Virus record (IMG/VR): IMGVR_UViG_3300032163_000079
Location: 1 to 28,521 of that record
Reading direction: 5' to 3' (one strand)
DNA: 28,521 nucleotides
From: a virus
Positions within the stretch are counted from its first letter, which is position 1. Each line of letters starts with the position of its first letter. Shown here piece by piece: positions 2,151-28,521 of this stretch. The notes beneath the pieces are model-generated. The model searched no databases. It saw nothing but the letters and a program-made list of their open reading frames with translations, and had not been told where the DNA came from. The position numbers and the translations under genes were made by a program.

Positions 2151-3581
2151 TTAAGCCTTTATTTCTTTTATAACAATCGAAGAAGCCATGACTCCGCCAA
2201 AGAGACGAGCGGCGCCTCCACCATTGAAACGTGTAGTGCCCGTCCCATCACTCCCCGCCCTGACTTTGAAAGTTATAGAAGATGTAGTCGCGGCAATCAT
2301 GGTATGAACGAGCACATTCTGAGCGCATTGATTTGATATGCCACCCACCCGCATTGTCGCTGCTATCGCGTTAGCTGTCGTATCCTGAAATAGAGCAATC
2401 GATACTATCCCGTTGCCGGAGGTTGCCCCATTCCATAAAACCTCTATGTTCAAGATATTAGTTGCGCTCTTCGGCGTGAACGCTAACGTCATGTATTCGT
2501 CCCCCTCGGTATTCTGGGGAATGGTATCATCAGTCGGTATCTGTGTTGACCCTGTCGCTAATGCCCCGGTCTGAAACTTGGCGAATTGAACGATTGCGCC
2601 GACGGCAACCTTCGCGTCCGTAACCGCGTTATCCGCTATTTTTGCGGTCGTAACGTTTAAGTCCGCTATTTTTGCCGTTGTTACGCCCAAAGCCGCGAGT
2701 TTCGCGGTCGTAACCACCCCGTCCGACACTTGAATGGCATACACCGGATTTATCAACACCCATTTATTCAGGGACAAGTCACAGACCAACTCAATCCAAC
2801 TATCCGCGCCCGGAATATCTCCCGGACTCAACGGCAGGTTATTTCCTTTAACAATCGTCATTGCGGCGAAAGAGTTCAGCTTAAACGTAGGGGTAGTCGT
2901 AGCGTTTGCCGCGCCCGCTTCAATGGAAACCCGTAACCCGTTGGTTAAAACAGAGAAGGAGAGCGATATAGTCGCCGTGATGACATCCGCAGTGCCGCCC
3001 GCGACAGCCACGAGGGTAGGGCTTGTTACGCTCAATATCTGCCCGGTAAGAGTGAGAGAGGCATCAATGCCGGTAACGAGGGTTGATATATCGGCGGGTG
3101 AGACCGCCTCAATCGCATTTCCGGCGGAGTTCCACCTGAATATTTTTAAGGACGAAGGAATGGGCAAAACAGACGATACGCCAGTCGTTGTTTCAGATAA
3201 CTTCATCGCCCTATCAATTTCTACCTGCTGGCTCTGGTCTTTCATCACAAGGTCGTCAAAAGCATCCTCGTGAATTTCGGGAAAGAAATCCCCCTGATTT
3301 CTTATGTCCGTTCCCTGTGTCAAAGCCCGTATTCTGCGTATTGTGAGCAGGTAGCTTGTTGGCAGGTTGCCTGCGGTGAGGGTTATAGAGCCGCCCGTCG
3401 TGTCGCCAACGCCCGATACTGTGAAGTCAGTGTCAACCGCCAGGGTTGTCTCGACATTTGCAGTATCCCGTTTCGTTACCTTCAAGTCCGTCTTCGCAAA
3501 TATCTTAAAGGTAAAACTGTAAGAGGCCGTCGCTCCATTGCCTACATAATCCATGCGGTTTGTAACTGAACTTATCGTCAT
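2151..3581 (-). CDS. Tail fibre with T7-like N-terminal domain
   Basis: The 476-aa protein begins with the virion-attachment domain seen in T7-type fibres (residues about 1-130: the N-terminal YVGNGATASYSFTFKIF segment, a DFTVSG strand, then LTIRR and a DQSQQVEIDRAMKL helix). The middle is beta-rich. Residues about 284-325 contain tandem VTTAKIADxNVTTAKIADNAVTDAK repeats, a shaft motif of trimeric fibres. The C-terminal part (about 350-476) looks like a TNF/C1q-like or other receptor-binding head. It should bind the host surface and attach to the tail. A clear AAGGAG ribosome site precedes it, 12 bp after the giant protein gene ends. Confidence 0.85.
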   Translation of the reverse strand: MTISSVTNRMDYVGNGATASYSFTFKIFAKTDLKVTKRDTANVETTLAVDTDFTVSGVGDTTGGSITLTAGNLPTSYLLTIRRIRALTQGTDIRNQGDFFPEIHEDAFDDLVMKDQSQQVEIDRAMKLSETTTGVSSVLPIPSSLKIFRWNSAGNAIEAVSPADISTLVTGIDASLTLTGQILSVTSPTLVAVAGGTADVITATISLSFSVLTNGLRVSIEAGAANATTTPTFKLNSFAAMTIVKGNNLPLSPGDIPGADSWIELVCDLSLNKWVLINPVYAIQVSDGVVTTAKLAALGVTTAKIADLNVTTAKIADNAVTDAKVAVGAIVQFAKFQTGALATGSTQIPTDDTIPQNTEGDEYMTLAFTPKSATNILNIEVLWNGATSGNGIVSIALFQDTTANAIAATMRVGGISNQCAQNVLVHTMIAATTSSITFKVRAGSDGTGTTRFNGGGAARLFGGVMASSIVIKEIKA

Positions 3582-3593
3582 TGAATTTCTCCT

Positions 3594-6500
3594 TTACTTT
3601 TTCACTTTCTTCTTAGATACCGCTTTACCGAGAATTTGAGCGGCCTGAGAGCTACCCGGTATCCCGGATAGTGTGCCCACCGCCCCCGCCGCCCTGATAA
3701 CGCCTTTTACCTTAGTGTTCCGGTCTTGCCCCTTAAACGCCCCCGCCGTCCCTTTGATTATATCTTCAGACGTGTTTATCAGTGGAATTGGATTAGACGA
3801 ATACGTCAGTGAGCTAACGACCTGTCCAGCAATCGGCACGGCTTGGACAATGTTCAACGCCGCCCCCGTCGCAAAAGAGTCTTCTTCCCGGTCATCGCCG
3901 GTGAGCGTGTTGACACCTTTTCTCACGCCTCTTCTAATTCCTTCCTCCAACGCCGCAGCCACTATCACAATCCAAAAAAACGATGATGCAGCTTTCTTAT
4001 AGTTTTTCTCCTTTATTCCCAGCCGCCATATCTGGCGCTCTATATTATCCCACCGGTGTAACATGAAACTCTGAAAGAGCAGTATGGTTTTATTCAGGGA
4101 CTTATTGCCGGATAAACCATAACCAGCCGTCATGGCGAGCGGCTGGTCTTTGAAAAATGAAGAGCCTTGACTCTCTCTCATCGCTTTTGTTGCCCCCGCG
4201 AGCAACCCCGCATCCGGCTTTGTATAATCGGGGACGACCCCTTTTTCAAAAGCCGCCTTATGATATGCTCCTATCGCGGCGGTCGAGCGCATCAAACCGT
4301 CGAGCGCGGTCAGTCCCGTCATGCCGATATGCGTGATATACCCGTCTCCCAATTCCCTAAAAGCTATGTCATCTCCGACCGCCTTCTTGACTTCAGGAAA
4401 GTTGTCTATAACGAAATTGCGGGCGGCTTTGGACGTTGCAATTTCATACGCTCCTCTCGTCGCCCATTTTACGCCGATTGTGCCGATGGTATCGGCAAAC
4501 GTCGATGGCTGAACTAATGCCGACGCTATTCTGAAAGCCAGAACGCCAGACCCCATATTGCGTCTGACGATGTCGAGCGCGGCTATCCGCTTCGCGCCTT
4601 CCGAGCCGCCCTTCCTTGCCATTACGTCCAGCCATTGAAGCCATGCGAGAGAGCCTACGTCGCCTAACTTCGCTCTCATCTCAGGCGTGTTCACTATTTC
4701 GGAATATTGTTTTATATCTCTTCCGAGCGTCAACATATACGCAACGTCATCTAAATGCCGCTGAAGGATTTTATTCGCGTTCAATTCCAGCTTGATTTTA
4801 CTTTTCGCCGCTGCCGCTTTCGTAAAACCCTGCTCTACTGTTTTCGTCCTGTATATAGCGTCATCGGGACGCGAACCGAACCGGTCATACATTTCCAACT
4901 CGTTCAGCGCGTCATAGTCGCTGTGAAAAGAGACGTAATTATCAATGTCCGGCAAGGCGATATTGTAATTATCTAACATGAATTTCTTTACGTCCGCGTA
5001 ATGTTCCTCTATTAACGTGCGGAATAATATCGCCGCCTTTTCTTCTTTTGGCGTAAGTTTTACGGCGTTAAGCGCCTCCTGCGTAATGCCGGAATTTGCC
5101 AACCGCTGAACGCCGCCCTCGCGTTTCTCCAGAAGTTTCGCGCCGAGCCGCTCGAAAGAGCCATCCTTAAATCCCGCCGTCGCCTCTTGCCAGCGCGACA
5201 AGGCGAGGTCGTTAAAGGTAAGGTAATTGCCAAAGCCCAAATCCAATGCCGCCTTCATCGGTTTCATGCCGGTGATATCCGCCAGCCCGTCTATCGGCGT
5301 AAGTGCTACACTGTTCTTTTGCATAAAATTACGCAACGCGACGTATCTCTCTACCCACGCCTTCGGCTTTTCGCCTATCGGCGCAACCCCTGCGGCCTTA
5401 GTATTTATAGGGGTCGCCGTTTCAAGCAACGTCTTCTGCCGGTCTGCTTTTTCAGCGTCGTATAACGCTTCCTTACTCGACCACTTCGTTTTTCCTAACT
5501 TGCCTAAGAGTTCAATTTCCGCTTGTAAGCCCTCGACTTGCGAACGTGTCAATTCATTCTTCGGAACGCGGGAAAGTATTTTAAGTTTTTCAAGCACCCT
5601 TCGCGGAAGCTCAATGTTTTCTCCGGCGGCTTCAGATTGTTTCAGGTATTCTTGCGTAGCCTGCAACTCTTCCAGTATGCCGGCTGTATGGCCGGATAAT
5701 TCATAGCGTCCGATTACGTCCTTGATTTTATTTCTGTAATCGGCGGCTACGGCAGAGCTATCGGAGAGTTTTTCAGCGGTTGTCTTGAGTTTCTTGATTG
5801 CCGCGTTCAGTCCCGTCTTTTCCTTCGCCGCATTCAGTATCTCGCTCATCCGCGCTTTTTCGACTGCCGCGCCCTCCTTATTCCCCGCCCTGTATGCCTC
5901 ACGCGCCGCCCTTGCCGCCTTGATGTAGGCAGCCTTGAGTTGGCCGAGTTCGGATATGGGAGCGGCCATGTCTTTCGTTTGTCCGGTCGCCTCACGGATA
6001 AGGGTCTTTACGCCTGTCTTTTTCGCCGGTTCATAAGTCGGCTCTGCCGCCGCCCTTGCCGTCTCCGCCGCTTTCATGGCCGCCCGTTCTTCCGGCGTGG
6101 CAAATATACTGTCCATCACCCGCCGCACTTCAGGGGTAAGCTCAACGCCTAATTCAAGAATGGTCTTATATACGCCCCTTAACCATTCTTTTATCTTCGC
6201 GAAGATGGTTTCTAATTCTTTTGACGGGGCTTTGCCTTCCATGAAGTAGACTTCAAGCCCACGTGCAAATTTCTCGTGCTGTGTGACGGTGAGAGGCTTG
6301 CCTTTTTCCGCCCCCAGCCAGTCGAGAATGGTTTTGTAATTCCCCTTGAGTTCTTCGGTGGCCTTCGGCATGGCGGCCAGCTCGCCCATGAGCTTGAAAT
6401 ACAGATGTCCGGTCTCATGTAAAAAAGTCGAGGGGTCGGCTTTCTCAAGCAGGGTTATGTCTATGCCGTTCTTGCCAAAGGAGATGCGGCCACGGGGGGT

Positions 6501-19824: not shown

Positions 19825-20252
19825 AGTGGCCTCCTTAGCATTGTCCTGACTGGTTTATATCCTTTATTCAACCACGAGCTTTTTTGCTCGTCAAAACAAA
19901 AAAACTCCAGCACGGATGCCTGCCGCGCATGTGCAAATCTTATAGCTTCGCGGTAGAGCCGTGCCGCAATAGACGTTTGCCGGTAGTCGGGCAATACGTA
20001 AAAATGCTGACCTACGGCATGTAACTGACCTGTCGATGGCTCAGGGTATAAAAACCCGTCAATGAACCCGACCAAGTGGCCGTCAACTTGCGCCGTACAT
20101 AGATGGTAAATATCGGTTTTTAGCAACGCCACCGCCATATCTTCCCACCAGTCGCGCCGAGGTGTATAGTCAGGAGCAAGTTCTTTCACCATCCGCACCC
20201 AGAGTGCGGCTATCTCAGGGACATCATCTGGTTTAGCATAGCTGATTATCAT
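19800..20252 (-). CDS. GNAT-family acetyltransferase
   Basis: The 150-aa protein follows the GNAT plan: MIISYAKPDDVPEIAAL at the start, VDGHLVGFIDGFL strands, then HFYVLPDYRQTSIAARLYREAIRFA (motif A, acetyl-CoA binding) and ASVLEFFC..EQKSSWLNKGYKPV (motif B). The motif A loop reads RQTSIA where Q/R-x-x-G-x-G/A is usual, so cofactor binding may be altered. Related genes occur beside portal and terminase genes of many podoviruses; the substrate is unknown. Its ATG overlaps the terminase stop (ATGA). Confidence 0.85.
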   Translation of the reverse strand: MIISYAKPDDVPEIAALWVRMVKELAPDYTPRRDWWEDMAVALLKTDIYHLCTAQVDGHLVGFIDGFLYPEPSTGQLHAVGQHFYVLPDYRQTSIAARLYREAIRFAHARQASVLEFFCFDEQKSSWLNKGYKPVRTMLRRPLCSTLYQQ

Positions 20253-21538
20253 ACTCTCTCCACGAACGGGTCATACTCGTGCAGACATTTGCCCCGCTCA
20301 CCTGCCCGCTCAATTATCCTTTCCACCGCGTCCCACTGTATATGCCCACCCATCGCAAACGTCCGCAACGCATCGGCGGCATGGCTATGCACGTCATGCA
20401 CAGGGTCTCTACTCTGACTATCGCCTTTATCCTCAAAACGGTAATGCCGGAGAGCCTGTAACCCATCCGCGCATTTCTCAGCGTCAAACCACAACGCAGG
20501 GAATACCATGCGGAGCGCATTAATCCCGTCTCCGATACTGGAGCGTGGGACTATATCTACGCGCCGACCGCCCGCCGTCAATAACTCCTCGGCGGAGCGT
20601 CCGCTCAGACCCGCATGGGACGACCCGTCATGCGGCAGGTAATCAGTCCCATAGACATAGCCCCTGTTCTGTAACTCTTTCAGGTAGTAGTCGCTGTCGC
20701 GTAACCTGTCCTGAAAAAAATCAATGACGTGATATTCAAACCCGAATTTTTGGACAAACCAGATTGACGTATTATCGCTATACCCCAAATCCCAAAACGT
20801 GCATACCGGCACGCCCTTGACATACGGAACGGACGTTATGCGCCCGGCCTCACGGGCAGCGGCCAACTCACGCGCATATACTGCACCCTCTACGGCCTGC
20901 CGGCACTGCCCACCCCAGATATTGAGATAGTCCGCCTCGCTCCTGCGTTGGCAGTCCTCCATCTCGCGCCGGAGCACGTCGGGGAACCACGGATTGTCCT
21001 GCCATGAGGATTTAATGACTACCGCACCGGTCGGAGGATTGATAACGAACCGCTGATATGTCTCGTCCTCCTCAAGCTCAGGATTGAGGCTCATCCATAT
21101 TTCGGAGTCCGGCTTACGAATGGTGGGGATGAGATAATCCCAGCTGGACTTACTGACTGACGTTGCCTCCTCCACCCAGACGCGGTCAACGCCCTCATAG
21201 GATTTTATCTGCGCGGCATTGTGGCGTAATCCCTCAAAGAAAAACTCCGTCCCGTTTTTTCCTTTGATTGTCGCGGCTTGAATGTTGTAATAGGATTGGA
21301 GGTTATATTGGGTTATTAGGTCGGAGAGAAGGCGGTGGACAGAGTCCTTGATGGACTTCATAAGCTCACGGGCGCATAATATACGCAGAGGTTCTTTAGC
21401 CCCCTGAACCAATAATGCACGGGCGATTGAATGGCTTTTAATCCCACCCCGCCCGCCGTGCAAAACCTTATACCGCGCCGGGGAAAGAAGCGGTAACATC
21501 TTGCGGGGGAATTCTATTTGAGCGACGCCTTCGGCCAA
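20249..21538 (-). CDS. terL: Terminase large subunit
   Basis: The 429-aa packaging motor has an ATPase half with Walker A-like HGGRGGIKS at 27-35 and Walker B VWVEEAT at 120-126 (catalytic Glu pair 123-124). The nuclease half has FWDLGYSDNT (Asp250, Asp255), LPHDG (Asp304) and SHAADALRT (Asp389). It resembles the PBSX/Terminase_3 type. It pumps DNA into the procapsid through the portal and cuts it. The start is TTG at 21538, supported by GAGGAG upstream; there is no better ATG. Confidence 0.95.
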   Translation of the reverse strand: MAEGVAQIEFPRKMLPLLSPARYKVLHGGRGGIKSHSIARALLVQGAKEPLRILCARELMKSIKDSVHRLLSDLITQYNLQSYYNIQAATIKGKNGTEFFFEGLRHNAAQIKSYEGVDRVWVEEATSVSKSSWDYLIPTIRKPDSEIWMSLNPELEEDETYQRFVINPPTGAVVIKSSWQDNPWFPDVLRREMEDCQRRSEADYLNIWGGQCRQAVEGAVYARELAAAREAGRITSVPYVKGVPVCTFWDLGYSDNTSIWFVQKFGFEYHVIDFFQDRLRDSDYYLKELQNRGYVYGTDYLPHDGSSHAGLSGRSAEELLTAGGRRVDIVPRSSIGDGINALRMVFPALWFDAEKCADGLQALRHYRFEDKGDSQSRDPVHDVHSHAADALRTFAMGGHIQWDAVERIIERAGERGKCLHEYDPFVERV

Positions 21539-21549
21539 TTATAAACTCC

Positions 21550-22014
21550 TCAGCCTATAATCTTTATCTCTATGCTCCTGACATCAATCGCGCCGCTAAC
21601 GTCCACTTTCTCATTCGGATAATAACTGCCGAGCTTGAACGCCGTATCTAAATATTTATGTCGCGTAGCGTAGTCAGGCACGTCAATAAAATCCTTAGTC
21701 ATGCCATTCGCGTCCGACATGCCTTCACCGTTCGGCGCGATGACATTCGCGGAAATGACCTTCGTAGACTCCAACCCCTCATCAAGTTTGCTCAAAAGTT
21801 TTTCAGACGTAAGCCCTTGTTTCTCCATTAATTCCTGAATGGTGGCCTGTATCTTGCTTTCTCTTGCCTTCGCCCCGGCCTTACTCGTCGCCGTGTAATG
21901 AGTATACCCAGCCTGTCTCATAGCAGTCGTAGGCGGAAGCCCTGCCGCCAGACCCTTGACAAACTTGCGCTCGCGGATATTGAGCGTTTCCTTTTTTTTC
22001 TTTTTTTCTTTCAC
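21550..22014 (-). CDS. terS: Terminase small subunit
   Basis: The 154-aa protein has the Terminase_2-type DNA-binding start LNIRERKFVKGLAAG..PTTAMRQAGYT followed by helix ATSKAGAKARES, then an oligomerisation helix (QATIQELMEKQGLTSEKLLSKL) and a variable tail. It recognises phage DNA and hands it to the large subunit. The first residues are a run of Lys and Glu (KEKKKKKE). The start is GTG at 22014, preceded by GAGGAA. A promoter -10 box ends only 6 nt upstream, so the main transcript may be leaderless. Confidence 0.9.
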   Translation of the reverse strand: MKEKKKKKETLNIRERKFVKGLAAGLPPTTAMRQAGYTHYTATSKAGAKARESKIQATIQELMEKQGLTSEKLLSKLDEGLESTKVISANVIAPNGEGMSDANGMTKDFIDVPDYATRHKYLDTAFKLGSYYPNEKVDVSGAIDVRSIEIKIIG

Positions 22015-22020
22015 ACTTCC

Positions 22021-22049
22021 TCTATACCACAGCCGGTTGCGGTTGTCAA
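22021..22049 (-). promoter_or_regulatory. Near-consensus promoter of the late operon
   Basis: TTGACA (22044-22049) and TATAGA (22021-22026) are separated by 17 bp. Start is predicted at about 22014, the GTG of the terminase small subunit. This is the strongest promoter for the whole minus-strand structural operon, and no late-type activator site is needed to explain it. Confidence 0.75.
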
Positions 22050-22061
22050 TAATAATTACAC

Positions 22062-22101
22062 AATGGCATCAGTCTTGCTAAGATGCAAGAGTTATGCCAT
22101 T
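22062..22101. promoter_or_regulatory. Interrupted palindrome between divergent promoters
   Basis: AATGGCAT (22062-22069) and ATGCCATT (22094-22101) are perfect inverted copies. An inner CTTGC/GCAAG pair (22074-22078 with 22085-22089) has the same centre. It lies between the -35 boxes of the two divergent promoters, where an operator would act. On the plus strand it is followed by TTATTTTT, so it could also be an intrinsic terminator for plus-strand (antisense) transcripts. Confidence 0.55.
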
Positions 22102-22128
22102 TTATTTTTAAATAACTGAAAACAACAC

Positions 22129-22155
22129 TTGACATCTATATCGGTATGTGATAAT
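22129..22155 (+). promoter_or_regulatory. Promoter of the plus-strand small genes
   Basis: TTGACA (22129-22134) is followed after 15 bp by GATAAT (22150-22155), which has an extended -10 TGT just before it (22147-22149). The extended -10 can compensate for the short spacer. It faces the three plus-strand genes at 22262-23443. Confidence 0.65.
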
Positions 22156-22179
22156 ATCATAATCATAGAGAGATTATCC

Positions 22180-22264
22180 GCAATAGGGCGGCAAAAGAAC
22201 GGAGGCAGAGATAGGCGCGTAATCACCGCAATCACGCGGCCAAAAACCGGGAGGTAGAGAAATG
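22180..22264 (+). repeat. Duplicated gene leader with ribosome site
   Basis: Two imperfect copies of the same leader lie in tandem: GCAAT...GCGGC...AAAAGAACGGAGGCAGAGATA (22180-22213) and GCAAT...GCGGC...AAAAACCGGGAGGTAGAGAAATG (22228-22264). A third copy (GCGGC...AAACCGGAGAAGGGGGTAGAAAATG) precedes the next gene at 22686. The first copy has ATA where the others have ATG, so it may be a decayed gene start. Confidence 0.55.
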
Positions 22265-22651
22265 GTCTATATTTTCAAAATCTTAAATGACGCCTCTGAT
22301 GTAGGCTTCGATTGGGGGACTGACCGGACGCACGAATTATCAATCGGAAAAAATCTCGCAGAGGCCGAGAAAATGGAGGAGGAACAAAGTGAATGGGACT
22401 CTACAGACGACCGTGTGGTCGTAGAGGCAGAAACTCCGGAAGAAGCATTCGTTGAGGCCCCTTCCGCGGGAAGCGCCGACTGCTGGAAAGACGACGTCTG
22501 GCTGGGGGTCGCGGACTATCTATCGAATAAGACGTGGGCGGAACTCCTGAACGTGAAATTCGAATACACCCTGCCGTCGGTGGAAGAATGGCAGGAAATC
22601 GCCAATATCCAAGGCGAAGATGCAGTTAAAAAAGCAAAGTTATATTTATAG
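22262..22651 (+). CDS. Unrecognised acidic protein
   Basis: This 129-aa protein is acidic, with a Glu-rich middle (AEAEKMEEEQSEWDS... VVVEAETPEEAFVEAP) and Trp-containing WKDDVWLGVADYL. I recognise no family. It has a good GGGAGG ribosome site, and its leader is duplicated. It is the first gene of the plus-strand unit opposite the late operon, a position often used for early or host-takeover genes. Being acidic it might mimic nucleic acid, but this is only a guess. Confidence 0.65.
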   Translation: MVYIFKILNDASDVGFDWGTDRTHELSIGKNLAEAEKMEEEQSEWDSTDDRVVVEAETPEEAFVEAPSAGSADCWKDDVWLGVADYLSNKTWAELLNVKFEYTLPSVEEWQEIANIQGEDAVKKAKLYL

Positions 22652-22685
22652 TGCGCGGCAAAAAAACCGGAGAAGGGGGTAGAAA

Positions 22686-23126
22686 ATGAATAAAGTATCG
22701 GAAGACACAAAGTACGCCATTTTGTGCGCAAAAGAAGTGTATAACGAGCCCAGTTGGGGTGCTTGGGCTGAGAACTGGTTGAGTGAAAACAACCGGACAG
22801 AGGCGGCGGCACGGGCAGCAGAGGCCGCAGCAGAGGCGGTGGCCTCTGCTGTGGCGGAGGCGGAGGGAGAGGAGGAGGAAGTGGAGGTGGAGAAGGAGTG
22901 GGCTACTGCGGAGGCAGAGGCTGTGGGGTGGGCAAAAGAGGAGGCGGAGGCGGTGGGGTGGGCGGCAGAGTCCGCAGCGTGGGCGGCGGAAGCCGCGGCG
23001 TGGGAGGCGATGGGGGAGTCGACGAAGGCCGCACGGGCGGCTGGGGAGGCGGTGAGGACTGCGAAGGCGGCGGCGAGGACGTCGCAGGCGGTGAGGGAAG
23101 CGATGGCGGAAAGAGGTAGAAAATGA
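22686..23126 (+). CDS. Ala/Glu/Trp-rich low-complexity protein
   Basis: The 146-aa protein has an ordinary N-terminus (MNKVSEDTKYAILCAKEVYN, then WGAWAENWLSENNRTEAAA). From residue 38 it consists of Ala, Glu and Val with recurring EAEAVGWA and AAAWEA units, a long helix or coiled coil. The DNA is purine-biased and several other frames are open. The ribosome site GGGGGT and the 4-bp ATGA overlap with the next gene support this frame. The N-terminal Trp motif resembles Ala-rich repeat proteins seen in phages and toxin immunity loci; the role is unknown. Confidence 0.65.
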   Translation: MNKVSEDTKYAILCAKEVYNEPSWGAWAENWLSENNRTEAAARAAEAAAEAVASAVAEAEGEEEEVEVEKEWATAEAEAVGWAKEEAEAVGWAAESAAWAAEAAAWEAMGESTKAARAAGEAVRTAKAAARTSQAVREAMAERGRK

Positions 23127-23443
23127 AAAAAATAGCTCTCACAACCGACCACCCCTCCTCGTCCTACGGGCTACCGGTGCTCGTCATAGATGGGCAGGCA
23201 TACGGCCCGGGCGACATGACACCGCTCGGGCCTGCGGCGGAAGTCGCGGCACATCCCAGTGCTGATAATGACAAAAATCTTCTTGACCGGTTTCTCGCTC
23301 AGCTTCCGCCGCCGAGTATCTGGACAGTAACATGTTACCGGTGCGGGCACGTTTGGAGTCCTGACAGGGTAGTGCCGCCTAAGTCGTGTCCCGCCTGCCG
23401 GTCGCCATACTGGGACAGGCCGCGCAAGACACAAAAACGGTAA
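23123..23443 (+). CDS. Zinc-ribbon protein
   Basis: This 106-aa protein has an N-terminal DHPSSSYGLPVLVIDGQAYGPGD segment and a C-terminal zinc ribbon: Cys71/Cys74 (CYRCGHVW) and Cys89/Cys92 (CPACRSPYWDRPR). The ending is common in small prokaryotic regulators and antitoxin-like proteins that bind nucleic acid, though I cannot name a partner toxin here. The start overlaps the preceding stop, and an AGAGGTAG site precedes it. It is the last gene of the plus-strand unit. Confidence 0.75.
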   Translation: MKKIALTTDHPSSSYGLPVLVIDGQAYGPGDMTPLGPAAEVAAHPSADNDKNLLDRFLAQLPPPSIWTVTCYRCGHVWSPDRVVPPKSCPACRSPYWDRPRKTQKR

Positions 23444-23448
23444 GCGTC

Positions 23449-23483
23449 TATCTGGGGCGGAGATATTACTTCGCCCCCAGATA
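23449..23483. terminator. Hairpin between convergent genes
   Basis: TATCTGGGGCG (23449-23459) and TCGCCCCCAGATA (23471-23483) form a nearly perfect inverted repeat with one bulged base. It lies between the convergent plus- and minus-strand units; its right arm is inside the end of the nuclease gene. There is no U-run, so it is probably an imperfect bidirectional terminator. Confidence 0.5.
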
Positions 23484-23849
23484 CTCCTCAATCACCTTTA
23501 CTGCCTCTTGCCAGCCGTAGCAGACCTCAACGCGATTGCCGAAAGCACGCAAGCGTTCATGCCATGCGCATTGTGCTGGTGTGGGTTTATTCTTGCCGAC
23601 TTTCATCTCGATATAAAGGCCGTGATATGGGTCACGTGGAACAGGCAAACCGATATCTGGAAAACCTGCGCGCAACCCTTCGGCCTTCATCCACGCGCCC
23701 TGAAACGGCGACCGGCGTGCCGCGTTCGGGATGGCGTAAAGCGCACTCAATTCAGGATATGTTTTTAAGTTAAGCGCAGCCCACTTTACAAGCGCAACCT
23801 GATTTTCGTGCTCCGTCCCTTCCGGCTTCCATTTCTTGACGGCTGTCAT
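23466..23849 (-). CDS. VRR-NUC domain nuclease
   Basis: The 127-aa protein is a single VRR-NUC (PD-(D/E)xK-type) domain: Glu14 in the first helix, YAIPNAARRS at 38-47, GLRAGFPDIGLPV with Asp65, LYIEMKVGK with Glu81 and Lys83, and Gln93 in TPAQCAWHERL. All expected catalytic residues are present. Such stand-alone phage nucleases are thought to act on branched or damaged DNA during replication and packaging. The ribosome site AAGGAG lies within the end of the preceding small gene. Confidence 0.9.
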   Translation of the reverse strand: MTAVKKWKPEGTEHENQVALVKWAALNLKTYPELSALYAIPNAARRSPFQGAWMKAEGLRAGFPDIGLPVPRDPYHGLYIEMKVGKNKPTPAQCAWHERLRAFGNRVEVCYGWQEAVKVIEEYLGAK

Positions 23850-23851
23850 AT

Positions 23852-24019
23852 CTATCTCCTTAGTCGTTCCTGTTGTTCTAAATAAAGAGAGGCCTTTCCT
23901 TTCTGTTCTGCCGCTTTAACAGCGAGTGCTCTCGCTTTCATATTCATATCCGCTAACTCCTGTTCAAGGGCATTTATCATCCGGCTCAAACAGGCGGCTG
24001 TGTTTATGAAAATGTTCAT
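23852..24019 (-). CDS. Small helical protein, 55 aa
   Basis: A clear AGGAGAAATT site precedes the ATG at 24019. The product starts MNIFINTAACLSRMINALEQ and continues as a charged helix (ELADMNMKARALAVKAAEQK, then YLEQQERLRR), probably a coiled coil. No family is recognised. It ends 2 bp before the nuclease ATG. Confidence 0.65.
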   Translation of the reverse strand: MNIFINTAACLSRMINALEQELADMNMKARALAVKAAEQKGKASLYLEQQERLRR

Positions 24020-24027
24020 AATTTCTC

Positions 24028-24282
24028 CTATCTATCCTCTTGGCATCTCACTTCGACATAAGCAAATCCTGCCAGCGCCAACTTCGCAGTCATCCATGCA
24101 CGAATACGTGGACTATTAGGCGAAGCTTCGGACAGTATCACGCGCGAGATGCAGGAAAAATCGCCCCAGTTTATGGATTCACCTTTAAATGCGTCTTTTG
24201 TGTGGTAGGCTTCTTCACACATTTTTATTGCGCATTCGCGCAAAGACACCAATTTTTTCATAACATCAAGATGCTCAGTCAT
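24028..24282 (-). CDS. Small unknown protein following the TIGR array
   Basis: The ATG at 24282 has an ideal AGGAGGAAAT site immediately left of the array. The 84-aa product starts MTEHLDVMKKLVSLRECAIK and includes INWGDFSCISRVIL and PRIRAWMTAKLALAGFAYVEV. No known domain is recognised. A longer frame would start at 24441, but that extension is the translated array (36 bp equals 12 codons, so the repeat stays in frame) and is spurious. Its place directly after the array makes it part of the same transcript; a role in the Tas system is possible but unsupported. Confidence 0.75.
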   Translation of the reverse strand: MTEHLDVMKKLVSLRECAIKMCEEAYHTKDAFKGESINWGDFSCISRVILSEASPNSPRIRAWMTAKLALAGFAYVEVRCQEDR

Positions 24283-24296
24283 ATTTCCTCCTATGG

Positions 24297-24594
24297 TCTT
24301 ACGCTTGCTTCCAGTGGGTGTCTCGTCGTTCATGGCTCGCTTGTGTTTTGTGGTTGTCTTTCGCTTAGTGGCTCGCTTGGCAACAGTGGGTGTTTTATGA
24401 TTTATGGCTCGCTTCACGCTCGTGGTTGTCTTGGCTATCATGGCTCGCTTGCCTTCAATGGTTGTCTCATGCCTAATGGCTCGCTACAATGCAATGGGTA
24501 ACTTTAATCTCGTGGCTCGCTTGCCTTCAGTGGGCATCTCGTAAAACGTGGCTCGCTTGTTGTCTTTGGGTGTCTGCATAATCTTGGCTTATCT
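24297..24594 (-). repeat. TIGR-type array: 36-bp dual-repeat, dual-spacer units
   Basis: On the plus strand TGGCTCGCTT recurs exactly every 36 bp at 24333, 24369, 24405, 24441, 24477, 24513 and 24549, with degenerate end copies at 24297 and 24585. Halfway between (24315, 24351, 24387, 24423, 24459, 24495, 24531, 24567) is a different 10-mer, consensus TGGKTGTCTY. The 16 intervening 8-bp segments are variable. No insertion or deletion disturbs the period. This is the layout of Tandem Interspaced Guide RNA arrays, whose processed tigRNAs are 36 nt with two spacers. Transcription is probably on the minus strand with the neighbouring tas gene. It is not CRISPR: repeats and spacers are far too short and two repeats alternate. 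Confidence 0.9.
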
Positions 24595-25542
24595 CAAATA
24601 AACCCACCCCCTCTCCTCCGGTCTTATTACCCGATGATTTTCACCGAGCATCGCCTCTACATAAAGTGCGTCTGTCGGCAGTCCCCTTAGCATCCTTCCG
24701 ACAAACCAGTAATCCGCGAGGAAGTGCTTCATTATCGCCCTTATCCCCGCCCCGTGTCTATGGCAGGGCTTAGCGTCCTTCCACGCCACCTCAACTAACT
24801 TACCTTGAGTGTTGCGGCTCATCACCAGTTTATCACTGCATGACAGACGATGCTTAACCGCGTCATAAACGGCACGATAGGGGCCGCGCCCTTTTATCTG
24901 ACTGTCGGCCATAGTGTAGAGGGCAGTTCTCAAGGTCTTGTTGCCGCCGCCCGCCGTTCCCTTTTCGTAACGCGAATGTGAGGGCTTGTCAAGTCCGGCA
25001 TACGCCCACAGGCTGGAGGCATGACGGGCTTTTTCAAGGTCTATGTATATCAGACAATTTGCAACCGTCATGGGGCCGATGGACTTTACCCCGATGGCAG
25101 CTTTTACAAGCGGGTCTGTTTTTACCATCTCCTTTACCGTCTTGCTCACCGCCGTGTCTATCGTTACGAGCTTGCCCGCAATAGCGTCAAGGTGAGAATT
25201 GAGAAACTCCTTTGTGTCCGCATCGAGGAAGTCCGTCCCCCGCTCCATCGCTAACAGCTGATTGTTTATTTTATTGCGAAGTTGCATGACGTGCCGCCGG
25301 CTGTCCATCTGCCCCTTGAGTATTTCAAAAAGTTCCTCACGTTCCCGCAACGTCCCCTGCTTCTTCATACGAGGGCGCGGCAGGACTGCCTGAACGTTCG
25401 GAAACGATAACCGCCCGCCCCGCGACTTAGGAATTTTCCGGTTCGCGTCATACAGCGGAACGGGGAGAGGCAATACCCCGCCCGATATGGCGCACAAGCC
25501 GTTCTGTGTCTTCTTGGTGGCAATCTTGATAGCTGTTTTCAT
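24589..25542 (-). CDS. tas: Tas protein of a TIGR-Tas system, nuclease-less (TasA-like)
   Basis: The 317-aa protein has a basic N-terminus (1-65), a coiled-coil helical region (about 66-145), then the Transposase_20/IS110 C-terminal-like core: GVKSIGPMTVANCLIYIDL (151-169, helix-hairpin-helix), LWAYAGLD (178-185), GGGNKTLRTALYTMA (198-212) and RAIMKHFLADYWFVGRML (268-285). The N-terminal RuvC/DEDD domain of true IS110 transposases is absent, and no HNH or inserted RuvC is seen. In TIGR-Tas systems this core is the Nop-like RNA-binding domain that uses dual-spacer guides to find DNA; forms without nuclease are called TasA. It ends inside the first array repeat. AAGGAG precedes the ATG. An annotation pipeline would probably call it an IS110/IS1111-type transposase. 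Confidence 0.85.
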   Translation of the reverse strand: MKTAIKIATKKTQNGLCAISGGVLPLPVPLYDANRKIPKSRGGRLSFPNVQAVLPRPRMKKQGTLREREELFEILKGQMDSRRHVMQLRNKINNQLLAMERGTDFLDADTKEFLNSHLDAIAGKLVTIDTAVSKTVKEMVKTDPLVKAAIGVKSIGPMTVANCLIYIDLEKARHASSLWAYAGLDKPSHSRYEKGTAGGGNKTLRTALYTMADSQIKGRGPYRAVYDAVKHRLSCSDKLVMSRNTQGKLVEVAWKDAKPCHRHGAGIRAIMKHFLADYWFVGRMLRGLPTDALYVEAMLGENHRVIRPEERGWVYLR

Positions 25543-25656
25543 CGGTTTTTCTCCTTATTTTCAGTTAGTAAAAACCAAACTCTTTATAAATCGCCTACTT
25601 AGCGTTATTACCCTTAGCCTACCCTTGGCAGACCCCTTTTTGTTGGATTTAGACCG

Positions 25657-25974
25657 CTAAACCCCTCCATGAGTGGCCTTCTTTTTGATAATATTGGTGC
25701 CCAAGTTGTCTATTTTACCCATCCCGCGCCGTTTAGGGTTCGTGCCAAACCTGTAATCCCACAGAGAGCATTTATGGGGCGCCGGGGCCAAGACCTCACC
25801 CATGCACTCCTTGACCTGTGGTGAGCTACCTACACAATCGAGACAATGAACACGTATCTTTTTTAAAGAAGATAAATCGCGGTCATTTAGTTTACAAAAT
25901 ATACTCCCGCAATCAAATTGCTGTCCGTTCTTGCAATAGCGGCATTGAATCTTGATTGACTTCTTCGGTGTCAT
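25657..25974 (-). CDS. Cys-rich putative zinc-binding phage protein
   Basis: From the ATG at 25974, with a strong AAGGAGGAAGTT site, this gives 105 aa. Two Cys clusters are visible: Cys11/14/22/27 (CRYCKNGQQFDCGSIFC) and Cys44/47/57/69 (HCLDCVGSSPQVKEC... CSLWDYRFGTNPKRRG). The CLDCxGxSPxxVxxC...CxLWxYRxGxNP motif is very common in phage early regions but has no assigned function. A start 10 codons earlier (26004) lacks a ribosome site. It is 8 bp or less beyond the loader operon context and precedes tas by 114 bp. Confidence 0.8.
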   Translation of the reverse strand: MTPKKSIKIQCRYCKNGQQFDCGSIFCKLNDRDLSSLKKIRVHCLDCVGSSPQVKECMGEVLAPAPHKCSLWDYRFGTNPKRRGMGKIDNLGTNIIKKKATHGGV

Positions 25975-26012
25975 AACTTCCTCCTTTTTTCGCTCAACCG
26001 TCAAGTTTTCCT

Positions 26013-26735
26013 TTACGGTTGCCCCGCCAAACCCAGCCGCCAGTCCTTCTGCCCCATGTTTATAACTGCACCCATCTCGCAGATGCGTGAGGCGATGCGG
26101 GCATCAAACTGTTCCGCTAACTGACCTTGCGTTAGATTACTCGTAATTATCGTCTGCCGGCAATCACGATAACGGCGGTCTATCAACAGGTATAAAACCG
26201 TGCGTGACCAGTCGCTTACTTTTTCTGCGCCTAAATCGTCTAACGTTAGAAGTGGACACCGTGAGTATTTTTCAAGGATAGCCCTTTCCTGTTCTGTTTC
26301 TCCCTGCCATGAGTTTTTTATTTCAAGGAGCAATTCAACCACTGGTAAAAATCGTGGTGTGCCCTTCGCCGGATAAATGCCGCTCTCTGCCACATCAAGG
26401 TTGTCCGCCAGCCAATTTCCCATGAGCGCGGAGGCAAGATGCGTTTTACCAGAGCCGTGCCCGCCGGTTAAAAATAAGCTCTCGCCTTTTCGTAAAATCT
26501 CCAATGCCCGCTCTGACTGTTTGTTTTGCAACAGGCCTTTTCCACGATAGCGGAGCGGTATGCGCATATCGGCAGTCGCCCTGATAGACCGCCCCGCCCT
26601 AACCGCTTCCTTCGTCTTCGTCAAATCGCTCTGTGACGGCATCGTAAGCTGCGCCGTCAGCCCAGACTCCACCTGCGGGCGTTCTGGCATTTTGATTATT
26701 GCGCTGATTTTTTCCATAGCACTCATTGCAAACAT
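26013..26735 (-). CDS. DnaC/IstB-like AAA+ helicase loader
   Basis: The 240-aa ATPase has Walker A GGHGSGKTHL at 91-100, Walker B LLTLDDLGAE at 162-171, sensor 1 ITSNLT at 197-202 and the arginine-finger region ARIASRICEMG at 212-222. It should load a replicative helicase, from host or phage, at the origin. The N-terminal 55 residues overlap the replication gene upstream by 137 bp. AGGGGG favours the second ATG (26726) over the first; another possible start is at 26567, exactly where the conserved part begins. Confidence 0.85.
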   Translation of the reverse strand: MFAMSAMEKISAIIKMPERPQVESGLTAQLTMPSQSDLTKTKEAVRAGRSIRATADMRIPLRYRGKGLLQNKQSERALEILRKGESLFLTGGHGSGKTHLASALMGNWLADNLDVAESGIYPAKGTPRFLPVVELLLEIKNSWQGETEQERAILEKYSRCPLLTLDDLGAEKVSDWSRTVLYLLIDRRYRDCRQTIITSNLTQGQLAEQFDARIASRICEMGAVINMGQKDWRLGLAGQP

Positions 26736-27558
26736 ACCCCCTGACTGTTTTTGTTAAAGTTGCCCAACCCGGCTTATCACGCGTAGACGGCAGCGCGCCA
26801 CAGGTGATGCATTGGTTAGGGTTGGGCTTATTGTCGCTGACGCATAGCTCGTCTTTCCACCTTTCGCCTCGTATCCACGTAGCGGCCAATGGGATATATT
26901 GTCCTTTTCCTTTCTGCCAATCTTCCCTTTGTTTGTGTTTTTCTATTGCCGCAAGGATTAGAGCTAAAAGGGTATCATCTGCTTTTAACGCTATCCACGC
27001 TTTCAAAGCGTCCTTCCTTGCGTCTTTTTTAGGATAGGCTTCCCAGAATTTTTCAAACCCGTAATCTCCCCCCTTGGGGGGTAGGGGGGTGTCTTTCTTT
27101 TCTTTTAAAGACAAAGATAAAGAAGAAGACAAAGACAAAGAAGAAGAGTTCGTGTTTGGTTCGCATTTGGTTTGAACCATTTTTGAACCAACCTTCGTGG
27201 TTAAATTCCTTTTAATTCTACGGACTTGACCTGATTTGATACCTGCGAGCTTACTTTTTTCGACCCATTCTTTTTGTTTTTGCCGCTCTTTTAACATGCG
27301 CAAATTAACCAAACGCGAACCAACCTTCGGGTGTGGAACGAAGCATTTTTGAACCAACCTTCGTAGTATCTTTTTATCCGTTAGCCGCGACAACTTCAAG
27401 AGGATTTCATCATCATCAGGCAAGCTGCATTCTGGGTCACTCCACATGTGGCAGAGCAGGTGAATATATGCCCCTTCCTCTTCTGGGGTCATAAGGGTAA
27501 TTTGTGTGCTTGATAGCCAATCAGCGGGGTAAAATTGGAAAGCCGGAGTATGAGCCAT
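26599..27558 (-). CDS. Replication initiation protein with DUF1376 domain
   Basis: The 319-aa protein starts with a DUF1376 domain (FYPADWLSSTQITLMTPEEEGAYIHLLCHMW at about 9-39, then a winged-helix-like stretch to about 90). A Ser/Leu-rich linker (138-152) and an FEKFWEAYPKK..RKDALKAW...PLAATWIRGERWKDE segment (169-236) follow, as in phage replication O-like proteins. A C-terminal zinc-binding pair, CITC (250-253) and CNEC (277-280), is an extra. It probably binds the origin and recruits the loader encoded next. A strong AAAGGAG site precedes its ATG. Confidence 0.8.
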   Translation of the reverse strand: MAHTPAFQFYPADWLSSTQITLMTPEEEGAYIHLLCHMWSDPECSLPDDDEILLKLSRLTDKKILRRLVQKCFVPHPKVGSRLVNLRMLKERQKQKEWVEKSKLAGIKSGQVRRIKRNLTTKVGSKMVQTKCEPNTNSSSLSLSSSLSLSLKEKKDTPLPPKGGDYGFEKFWEAYPKKDARKDALKAWIALKADDTLLALILAAIEKHKQREDWQKGKGQYIPLAATWIRGERWKDELCVSDNKPNPNQCITCGALPSTRDKPGWATLTKTVRGYVCNECYGKNQRNNQNARTPAGGVWADGAAYDAVTERFDEDEGSG

Positions 27559-27580
27559 TTACATCTCCTTTAAAATGCAC

Positions 27581-27651
27581 AAAGCCGTTCACAACGGGGG
27601 CGATATCCCCTTCCATGCGCAGATTGCCCACGCATGTTTGTGAACGGCTTT
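27581..27651 (-). ncRNA. Three-way-junction RNA leader of the replication gene
   Basis: The perfect 14-bp outer stem (27581-27594 with 27638-27651) encloses two further hairpins: CATGCG/CGCATG (27614-27619 with 27631-27636) and GGGG/CCCC (27597-27600 with 27607-27610). It lies between a promoter at 27699-27726 and the replication gene, ending 22 nt before its ATG. There is no U-run, so it is a structural leader, a protein-binding site or a DNA element such as an origin rather than a terminator. Confidence 0.6.
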
Positions 27652-27698
27652 ATAAATTCTAATGGATTGTATGAAACCATATCGCGGTTCATTCTTTT

Positions 27699-27726
27699 AT
27701 CTTACCACCTTTTAAAAAAAAGTCAA
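27699..27726 (-). promoter_or_regulatory. Promoter of the replication/TIGR operon
   Basis: TTGACT (27721-27726) lies 16 bp from TAAGAT (27699-27704); the spacer has an A/T run. Transcription would start near 27692 and cover the structured leader, both replication genes, the Cys-rich gene, and probably tas and the array. No other good promoter lies between here and the array. Confidence 0.6.
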
Positions 27727-27739
27727 GTGAAAAATCTGG

Positions 27740-27916
27740 TTATTTTTTTAACTTATGAGTAACTGCCCATGCTAAATCGGATAGTTTTTTTCTGGCCTGC
27801 CTTGTGTAGATGTAAAAACTATCAGGCGGCATCCGATTGGCAGGGTCTGTTTCTATTCTAAGGCGTAACTCGTCGAGTTCTGCCAAAGTCAATTTGCACA
27901 TTCTGAGATTTTTCAT
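27740..27916 (-). CDS. Small unknown protein, 58 aa
   Basis: The ATG at 27916 has AGAGGGG upstream; an in-frame GTG at 27940 would add eight residues but lacks a site. The product starts MKNLRMCKLTLAELDELRLR and ends WAVTHKLKK, helical and basic, with a PPDSFYIYTRQARKKLSDL segment. The KLTLAELDELRLRI segment resembles short helical phage regulators. No family is assigned. Confidence 0.65.
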   Translation of the reverse strand: MKNLRMCKLTLAELDELRLRIETDPANRMPPDSFYIYTRQARKKLSDLAWAVTHKLKK

Positions 27917-27932
27917 CACACCCCTCTTTGCA

Positions 27933-28106
27933 TCATGCACGCTTTATTTCGGAGTATAGGCGGTTCAACTCCTCAACTACGAGAGCACCGTCTCTTGTCC
28001 ATGTTCTGTCCTCAGGTTCGCCCAAATAGCAGGCGAACCCGTTTGGCCCAACCAGATAACAGGAGTCGTTGGTGACGTAGTATGCCTTTTTAACCTTATC
28101 CGTCAT
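27933..28106 (-). CDS. Small unknown protein, 57 aa
   Basis: An AAGGGGGAAT site precedes the ATG at 28106. The product starts MTDKVKKAYYVTNDSCYLVG and contains PNGFACYLGEPEDRTW and a C-terminal helix VVEELNRLYSEIKRA. It reads like a small beta-strand-plus-helix early phage protein. Function unknown. Confidence 0.7.
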   Translation of the reverse strand: MTDKVKKAYYVTNDSCYLVGPNGFACYLGEPEDRTWTRDGALVVEELNRLYSEIKRA

Positions 28107-28128
28107 ATTCCCCCTTGTCCCCTATTCC

Positions 28129-28248
28129 TCATGCAAAAAAACATTTGACACAACACGCATATTTATCGGCGAAACACCCCGGACATCCCTCAAAATCATG
28201 GTTCGGTTTATGCGTGATAGCTCCGCAGAATACGCAAAAACGCCTCAT
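28129..28248 (-). CDS. 39-aa Cys-rich zinc-finger-like peptide
   Basis: The product MRRFCVFCGAITHKPNHDFE continues with GCPGCFADKYACCVKCFFA. It has seven Cys and two His, including CVFC, CPGC and CCVKC, enough to bind two zinc ions. The start follows the PAPS-reductase-like stop by 8 bp without an obvious ribosome site, so it is probably coupled to that gene. The dense, regularly spaced Cys pairs argue against chance. Confidence 0.55.
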   Translation of the reverse strand: MRRFCVFCGAITHKPNHDFEGCPGCFADKYACCVKCFFA

Positions 28249-28256
28249 TGGAGCGA

Positions 28257-28521
28257 TTATTCAAATAATATCGTTTGGTCGTCATCGTCATCACCCTTAC
28301 CCTTCAGCCACCAATTGAACATTTCCTCCCAATTCGCCCATCTGTCAACCGAGGGATTTCCTTCAAGTTTGCGCTTGGCATAAAGCCGCATAAAAGCTCG
28401 CTTCCAGCCATCTGCAATTTTAGGAAATTGTTCCATTTCTCTTACCTTTGCAGCATAAGAGGCTTGCGGACAAAGGACACAACCGAGGCGCTTAAATCCT
28501 CTATCATATAAATTACAATAG
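28257..28521 (-). CDS. PAPS-reductase-family protein, 5'-truncated by the window edge
   Basis: Only the last 87 residues are inside the window. They begin YCNLYDRGFKRLGCVLCPQA, the C-terminal GFxRxGCxxCP motif of phage phosphoadenosine-phosphosulfate reductase-like (DndC-type) proteins. A helical segment and an acidic GDDDDDQTILFE tail follow. In phages such proteins are linked to sulfur transfer or nucleotide modification; substrate unknown. The N-terminal ATP-pyrophosphatase loop would lie off the right edge. Confidence 0.8.
   Translation of the reverse strand, partial: YCNLYDRGFKRLGCVLCPQASYAAKVREMEQFPKIADGWKRAFMRLYAKRKLEGNPSVDRWANWEEMFNWWLKGKGDDDDDQTILFE

Follow-up and report, generated by a model that had tools for sequence, protein, structure and literature searches.

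The locus described here raises two questions: whether a phage gene that reference libraries name a transposase encodes the effector of an RNA-guided system and, if so, whether that effector can still cut DNA. The gene (tas) lies on a 28.5-kb virus record, analysed over its full 28,521 nucleotides (the window), that encodes tail, internal virion, head-tail adaptor, major head and terminase proteins. It is situated between replication genes (DnaC-like and primosomal) and the terminase, and is preceded by a ribosome-binding-like AGGAG. The initial annotation had read the product as a TasA, misnamed as an IS110 transposase, that has neither an HNH nor a DEDD/RuvC domain and binds its target without cutting it.

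The misnaming is real. Pfam gives the window protein only Transposase_20 (E 5.5e-6) and PHROGs matches it to a family labelled 'transposase' (PHROG 4285), so that the Transposase_20-like core proposed at the outset is present, as is the GNKTLR motif (GGGNKTLR). Searching the Tas profile, as had been suggested, places the protein above the cut-off of the NCBIfam TIGR-Tas model NF052498 (114.4 bits against 100, E 7e-33), which is matched by 24/24 members of our alignment A2. The library names mislead both ways, 'transposase' in Pfam and PHROGs versus 'endonuclease' in NCBIfam. Of proteins with a solved structure, TasH matches best by sequence (E 5.8e-96, residues 11-314), followed by TasR (9mty, E 3.6e-11). 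Among named phages, the nearest relative is the prototype SpTasH of Salicola phage CGphi29 (51% identity over residues 13-315; Faure et al. 2025, PMC12045711), and identity to the 23 TasH relatives in A2 is 42-56%. The window gene is a TIGR-Tas effector of the TasH lineage and not an IS110 transposase. The TasA assignment does not hold at this level of identity to TasH and with an HNH-homologous N-terminus: TasA is defined as a solo Nop domain (PMC12045711), and TasA proper is ruled out by the additional domain.

Table 1. Positions in the window of the tas gene, its domains and diagnostic codons, the array and the neighbouring nuclease gene.
Feature	Position	Strand	Basis or remark
tas gene, 317 aa, TasH-lineage TIGR-Tas effector	24589..25542	(-)	intact ORF, NCBIfam model, TasH matches
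HNH-homologous N-terminal domain (residues 18-66), predicted degenerate metal site	25345..25491	(-)	alignment to 33 relatives; beta-beta-alpha unit in model
Codon 34, Asn (AAC); D or H in 33/33 relatives	25441..25443	(-)	
Codon 58, Arg (CGT); His in 33/33 relatives	25369..25371	(-)	
Codon 62, Gln (CAG); His in 33/33 relatives	25357..25359	(-)	
Coiled-coil helices (residues 70-140)	25123..25335	(-)	AF2 model
Transposase_20 / Nop core (residues 152-218) with GGGNKTLR	24889..25089	(-)	Pfam match, structure comparison
TIGR array, 8 units x 36 nt; first edge overlaps tas stop codon	24307..24594	(-)	pattern scan
3' truncated edge repeat (AAGCG), array end	24302..24306	(-)	
VRR-NUC protein	23466-23849	(-), as tas	~0.7 kb from tas

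The AF2 model of the window protein (24 sequences, mean pLDDT 91.5) contains a beta-beta-alpha unit (strands 32-35 and 50-53, helix 55-62), followed by two long helices that form the expected coiled coil and by the Nop core. The structure job did not include SpTasH (L012). In comparisons with VIA-align, the nearest solved structure is TasH 9w04 (Z 29.7, 307 residues, rmsd 4.1). TasR 9mty (Z 19.2, 198 residues, rmsd 2.7) aligns from residue 63 only and IS621 (Z 15.4, 183 residues, rmsd 3.6) to residues 67-312 only. Nop5 (1nt2), one of the comparisons proposed initially, reaches Z 8.0 (151 residues, rmsd 4.2), within the range of chance helical matches. The window protein has no DEDD/RuvC domain, as had been claimed; its N-terminus is HNH-like, and both IS621 and TasR align only C-terminal of that part. 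The HNH fold in the model is no independent test of HNH retention, because the alignment behind it consists of intact relatives.

The absence of an HNH domain, in contrast, is not borne out: about 66 N-terminal residues align through the TasH HNH domain (residues 11-68 of the window protein), and what is missing is the set of predicted metal-binding residues, the domain itself being present. When 20 intact TasH N-termini (SpTasH included) were made into a profile and searched against the PDB, the hits beyond TasH itself included a maturase HNH (E 1e-4) and DNases of colicin E7 (E from 0.026). TasH columns 58 and 62 align with the HxxxH pair in the last helix of the colicin E7 and group II intron maturase HNH domains, corresponding to colicin H569 and H573 (numbering assigned from the HxxxH pair), and columns 34-35 align with the maturase HH pair, of which column 34 is the first His. 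In colicin E7, H544, H569 and H573 hold the metal and H545 is the base (PMC10386286). Where HNH enzymes usually have this general-base His, TasH has Arg in the profile alignment. With these roles transferred from colicin to TasH by homology, all three predicted ligand columns (34, 58 and 62, which match metal ligands in HNH DNases) are replaced in the window HNH. The counts rest on 33 different TasH relatives whose N-terminus could be read, 20 of them with D and 13 with H at column 34; dropped beforehand were L023 (a near copy of L021, its metal columns also intact), the identical proteins L048, L050, L064 and L073, fragments lacking the N-terminus (L011/L038, L072/L183) and loci re-fetched from the same contigs. 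Cutting by TasH is reported to be HNH-dependent (PMC12045711). On these substitutions, the window protein is very likely unable to cut DNA. Its HNH part retains L30, D32, R35, K39, G42, G43, N49 and P55, with Y45 changed to Leu.

By eye, the TasH alignment also contains two kinds of HNH: R61 accompanies D34 in 19/20 sequences and occurs in 0/13 of those with H34, seven of which have E61. These may be two versions of the active site that differ in chemistry.

No second TasH with a lost metal site was found: a scan with the first 69 residues of the window protein gave 23 candidate stretches and no relative, and the two relatives newly obtained by the A4 scan are intact. No relatives were found in cellular genomes and plasmids either (0/12 candidate stretches in one scan, none in a second).

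The HNH part evolved unusually fast on the window branch, and the Nop part did not. With the tree fixed from the Nop part, the terminal branch measures 3.76 in HNH versus 0.345 in Nop, a ratio of 10.9 that is the highest of 25 taxa and is noisy, being drawn from only 40 HNH columns. When branches were scaled one at a time in the HNH part, the window stood at the top of 31 taxa (2dlnL 20.0; next 9.8), with a branch about three times the expected length, the best among six coarse multipliers (0.1, 0.3, 1, 3, 8, 20); L018, a near copy of L017, was excluded. Counting the columns on which at least 90% of relatives agree, 3/11 are changed in the window HNH and 1/64 in Nop (Fisher p 0.009), so that 63/64 conserved Nop columns are retained. 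Within the HNH part, changes affect 3/3 ligand columns versus 1/9 other conserved columns (hypergeometric 0.018, a post hoc comparison of small numbers). A Nop-domain tree rooted on three TasA-like phage proteins nests the window among TasH sequences; its FastTree support labels may have shifted on re-rooting. In the analysis of terminal branch lengths, the nearest neighbour of the window is weakly supported (bootstrap 44-50).

The adjacent array noted initially is there, on the same strand as tas. Each of its eight 36-nt units consists of a 10-nt edge AAGCGAGCCA, an 8-nt spacer A, a 10-nt loop resembling AAGACAACCA and an 8-nt spacer B. A pattern scan found seven dual-repeat matches at exact 36-nt spacing versus 0.03 expected, and 0/100 shuffles reached seven. 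Seven of the eight edges differ from AAGCGAGCCA by at most one base. Each of the 16 half-repeats terminates in CCA, a motif named box C in TasR arrays (PMC12045711). Arrays of 36-nt dual repeats stand beside tas in 25/25 loci (the window and 24 relatives); edge repeats also occur upstream of the gene in 17/25, the window array being downstream only. The window has no Rfam match. The B spacers of units 2, 4 and 8 are alike (CTGAAGGC, TTGAAGGC, CTGGAAGC) and their A spacers differ, as if aimed at related sites or as if the units had diverged from copies.

We searched for targets of 271 spacer pairs from the 25 loci in 468,767 bases, comprising 28 stretches (the window, 24 TasH loci, the near copy L023, the tas fragment L038 and a Microcystis phage, L013), with gaps of 0-2. 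The pairing order, A followed by the reverse complement of B, was inferred from the cut geometry in PMC12045711. There were no exact targets. One-mismatch matches numbered 23 versus 14.2 ± 5.2 in ten shuffled pairings, and the three other arrangements gave 12, 20 and 19 versus 10.1, 11.6 and 11.8; the largest excess in standard deviations belongs to the contiguous A-B arrangement, which disagrees with the known mode. These mismatch counts provide no evidence of targets. Within the window itself, its spacers have no self target with up to two mismatches. A single window spacer pair searched against all IMG/VR contigs was found in two, versus 79 for a swapped control pair, and is uninformative.

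Apart from the misnamed tas, no integrase family was found among the 28 ORFs scanned against PHROGs. A non-exhaustive repeat scan of 20000-28521 showed no element ends or terminal repeats flanking tas, which fits the initial annotation on this point. Two further features were noticed in the window. A repeat-rich, Ala/Glu-rich ORF with no PHROG match (22686-23126, (+)) lies amid mostly (-) genes, and an inverted repeat of 29 nt with a 43-nt loop (27566-27666; 83% complementary), located shortly upstream of the gene for the primosomal protein, is a possible RNA structure or regulatory site.

Several other explanations of the locus deserve to be weighed. That the gene encodes an IS110-family transposase has a practically negligible probability: the Pfam and PHROG labels speak for it, and it is ruled out by domain content: there is no DEDD domain, and IS621 aligns only outside the N-terminal part. 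The TIGR array and the match to the NCBIfam Tas model argue in the same direction. It is also very improbable that the protein is a TasA with no nuclease of its own that relies for cutting on the VRR-NUC protein, a partner suggested in the initial annotation; in favour, the two genes lie close together on the same strand. A VRR-NUC gene occurs in only 2/12 tas-bearing records (several of them fragments), namely the window and the Salicola phage, in which it is ~24 kb from tas. In L078, the closest phage by terminase (76%), a 59% identical VRR-NUC adjoins the small terminase gene, with no tas within its 13.9 kb. VRR-NUC belongs to the terminase module, and on this context we reject it as a Tas partner.

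Two further readings accept a TasH origin. In one, the protein is still a nuclease, with N34, R58 and Q62 forming an unusual or metal-independent active site. D32, R35, N49 and both glycines are retained, and therefore weak or unusual activity is conceivable; TasH already departs from other HNH enzymes at the general base, and at the last HNH position mutants of some enzymes retain partial activity (PMC5304195). Against this, all three ligand columns have changed, to residues absent from the 33 relatives, in a family in which cutting is reported to depend on this domain, and we consider the reading quite doubtful. In the other, the TIGR system is in decay, the nuclease having been lost first and the rest drifting without present function. 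The long HNH branch would fit such a course, as would the single occurrence; the intact ORF with its ribosome-binding-like site, the short Nop branch and near-complete Nop conservation, the well-kept edges and CCA ends and the concentration of changes on the metal columns all count against it, and decay seems to us unlikely.

We therefore regard it as probable that the locus is a TIGR-TasH system whose effector no longer has a working nuclease but still binds DNA as directed by its guide, a reading that rests on one sequence. It agrees with the core idea of the initial annotation, binding without cutting, to which the replacement of the ligands and the preservation of Nop columns and repeats lend support. 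The predicted metal-holding residues are lost, and therefore the window Tas probably grips chosen DNA without cutting it. In such a system, tas and the array would be transcribed together and the array processed to 36-nt tigRNAs, one of which would be loaded per Tas dimer. Spacers A and B would pair with opposite strands of a ~16-bp site, and the complex would hold and bend the DNA; tigRNA loading, two-strand recognition and bending are carried over from work on TasH and TasR (PMC12045711). If there is no cutting, site occupancy would therefore be the effect, and, with less assurance, a complex that stays bound might keep transcription or replication from proceeding there, which would make the protein a naturally occurring analogue of dCas9 or TldR. 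The host or rival phages may be silenced. More tentatively, and with a probability slightly below even, a phage may have converted a TasH nuclease to an RNA-guided DNA-binding regulator by replacing exactly the predicted metal-holding residues, a natural 'dTasH' that would have kept the HNH fold for DNA grip, would repress host, rival-phage or its own genes and would have arisen independently of TldR.

Other Tas loci were noticed along the way. In the isolated cyanophage Microcystis phage Mvi-JY20 (L013), a TIGR array built of ATGCGAGCCA / ACGAAACCCA repeats (5701-6022) comes after the gene of a 241-aa TasA-like protein (4965-5690) that is annotated as hypothetical; phage and host both have names, and a TasA could be tested there. 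Mycobacterium phage records account for 35 of the named-phage matches to the window Tas. In two of these mycobacteriophages (L075, Ohno789, at 2857-3564; and L076), a Tas/Nop-like protein of ~235 aa is encoded beside a Cas4-family exonuclease or with a single gene in between, and L075 1500-6618 showed no dual-repeat array.

The founding paper covers active TasH, active and inactive TasR, and TasA; it calls the role of the non-cutting forms unclear and offers that they block transcription or replication or aid integrases (PMC12045711). No description of a nuclease-dead TasH was found in searches of open-access literature or in the passages of the founding paper that were consulted. Nucleases are proposed to have been added to a TasA-like ancestor (PMC12045711); a dead TasH would be a step the other way, in which targeting outlived cutting, and would suggest that a phage can profit from binding alone.

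Among known systems, SpTasH/SpTIGR has the same domain order, edge AAGCGAGCCA, loop AAGACAACCA, 8+8-nt spacers (16 variable nt per unit; PMC12045711), a 36-nt unit and an array downstream of tas. It differs in having D34, H58 and H62, and it cuts DNA. TasR proteins of CPR bacteria with a predicted inactive RuvC resemble the window protein in that a nuclease fold is kept and predicted to be dead, although the fold is RuvC rather than HNH and they are reported with stem arrays and Nop insertions (PMC12045711). TasA is likewise predicted to bind without cutting, but it has no N-terminal nuclease domain, whereas the window protein carries an HNH remnant. TldR, a dead TnpB of prophages that acts as a repressor (PMC13418256), offers a parallel, being phage-borne, with guide RNA and DNA binding kept and the nuclease site lost; its protein and guide are unrelated to those of TIGR-Tas, and repression is shown for TldR, whereas the window system is known from its sequence.
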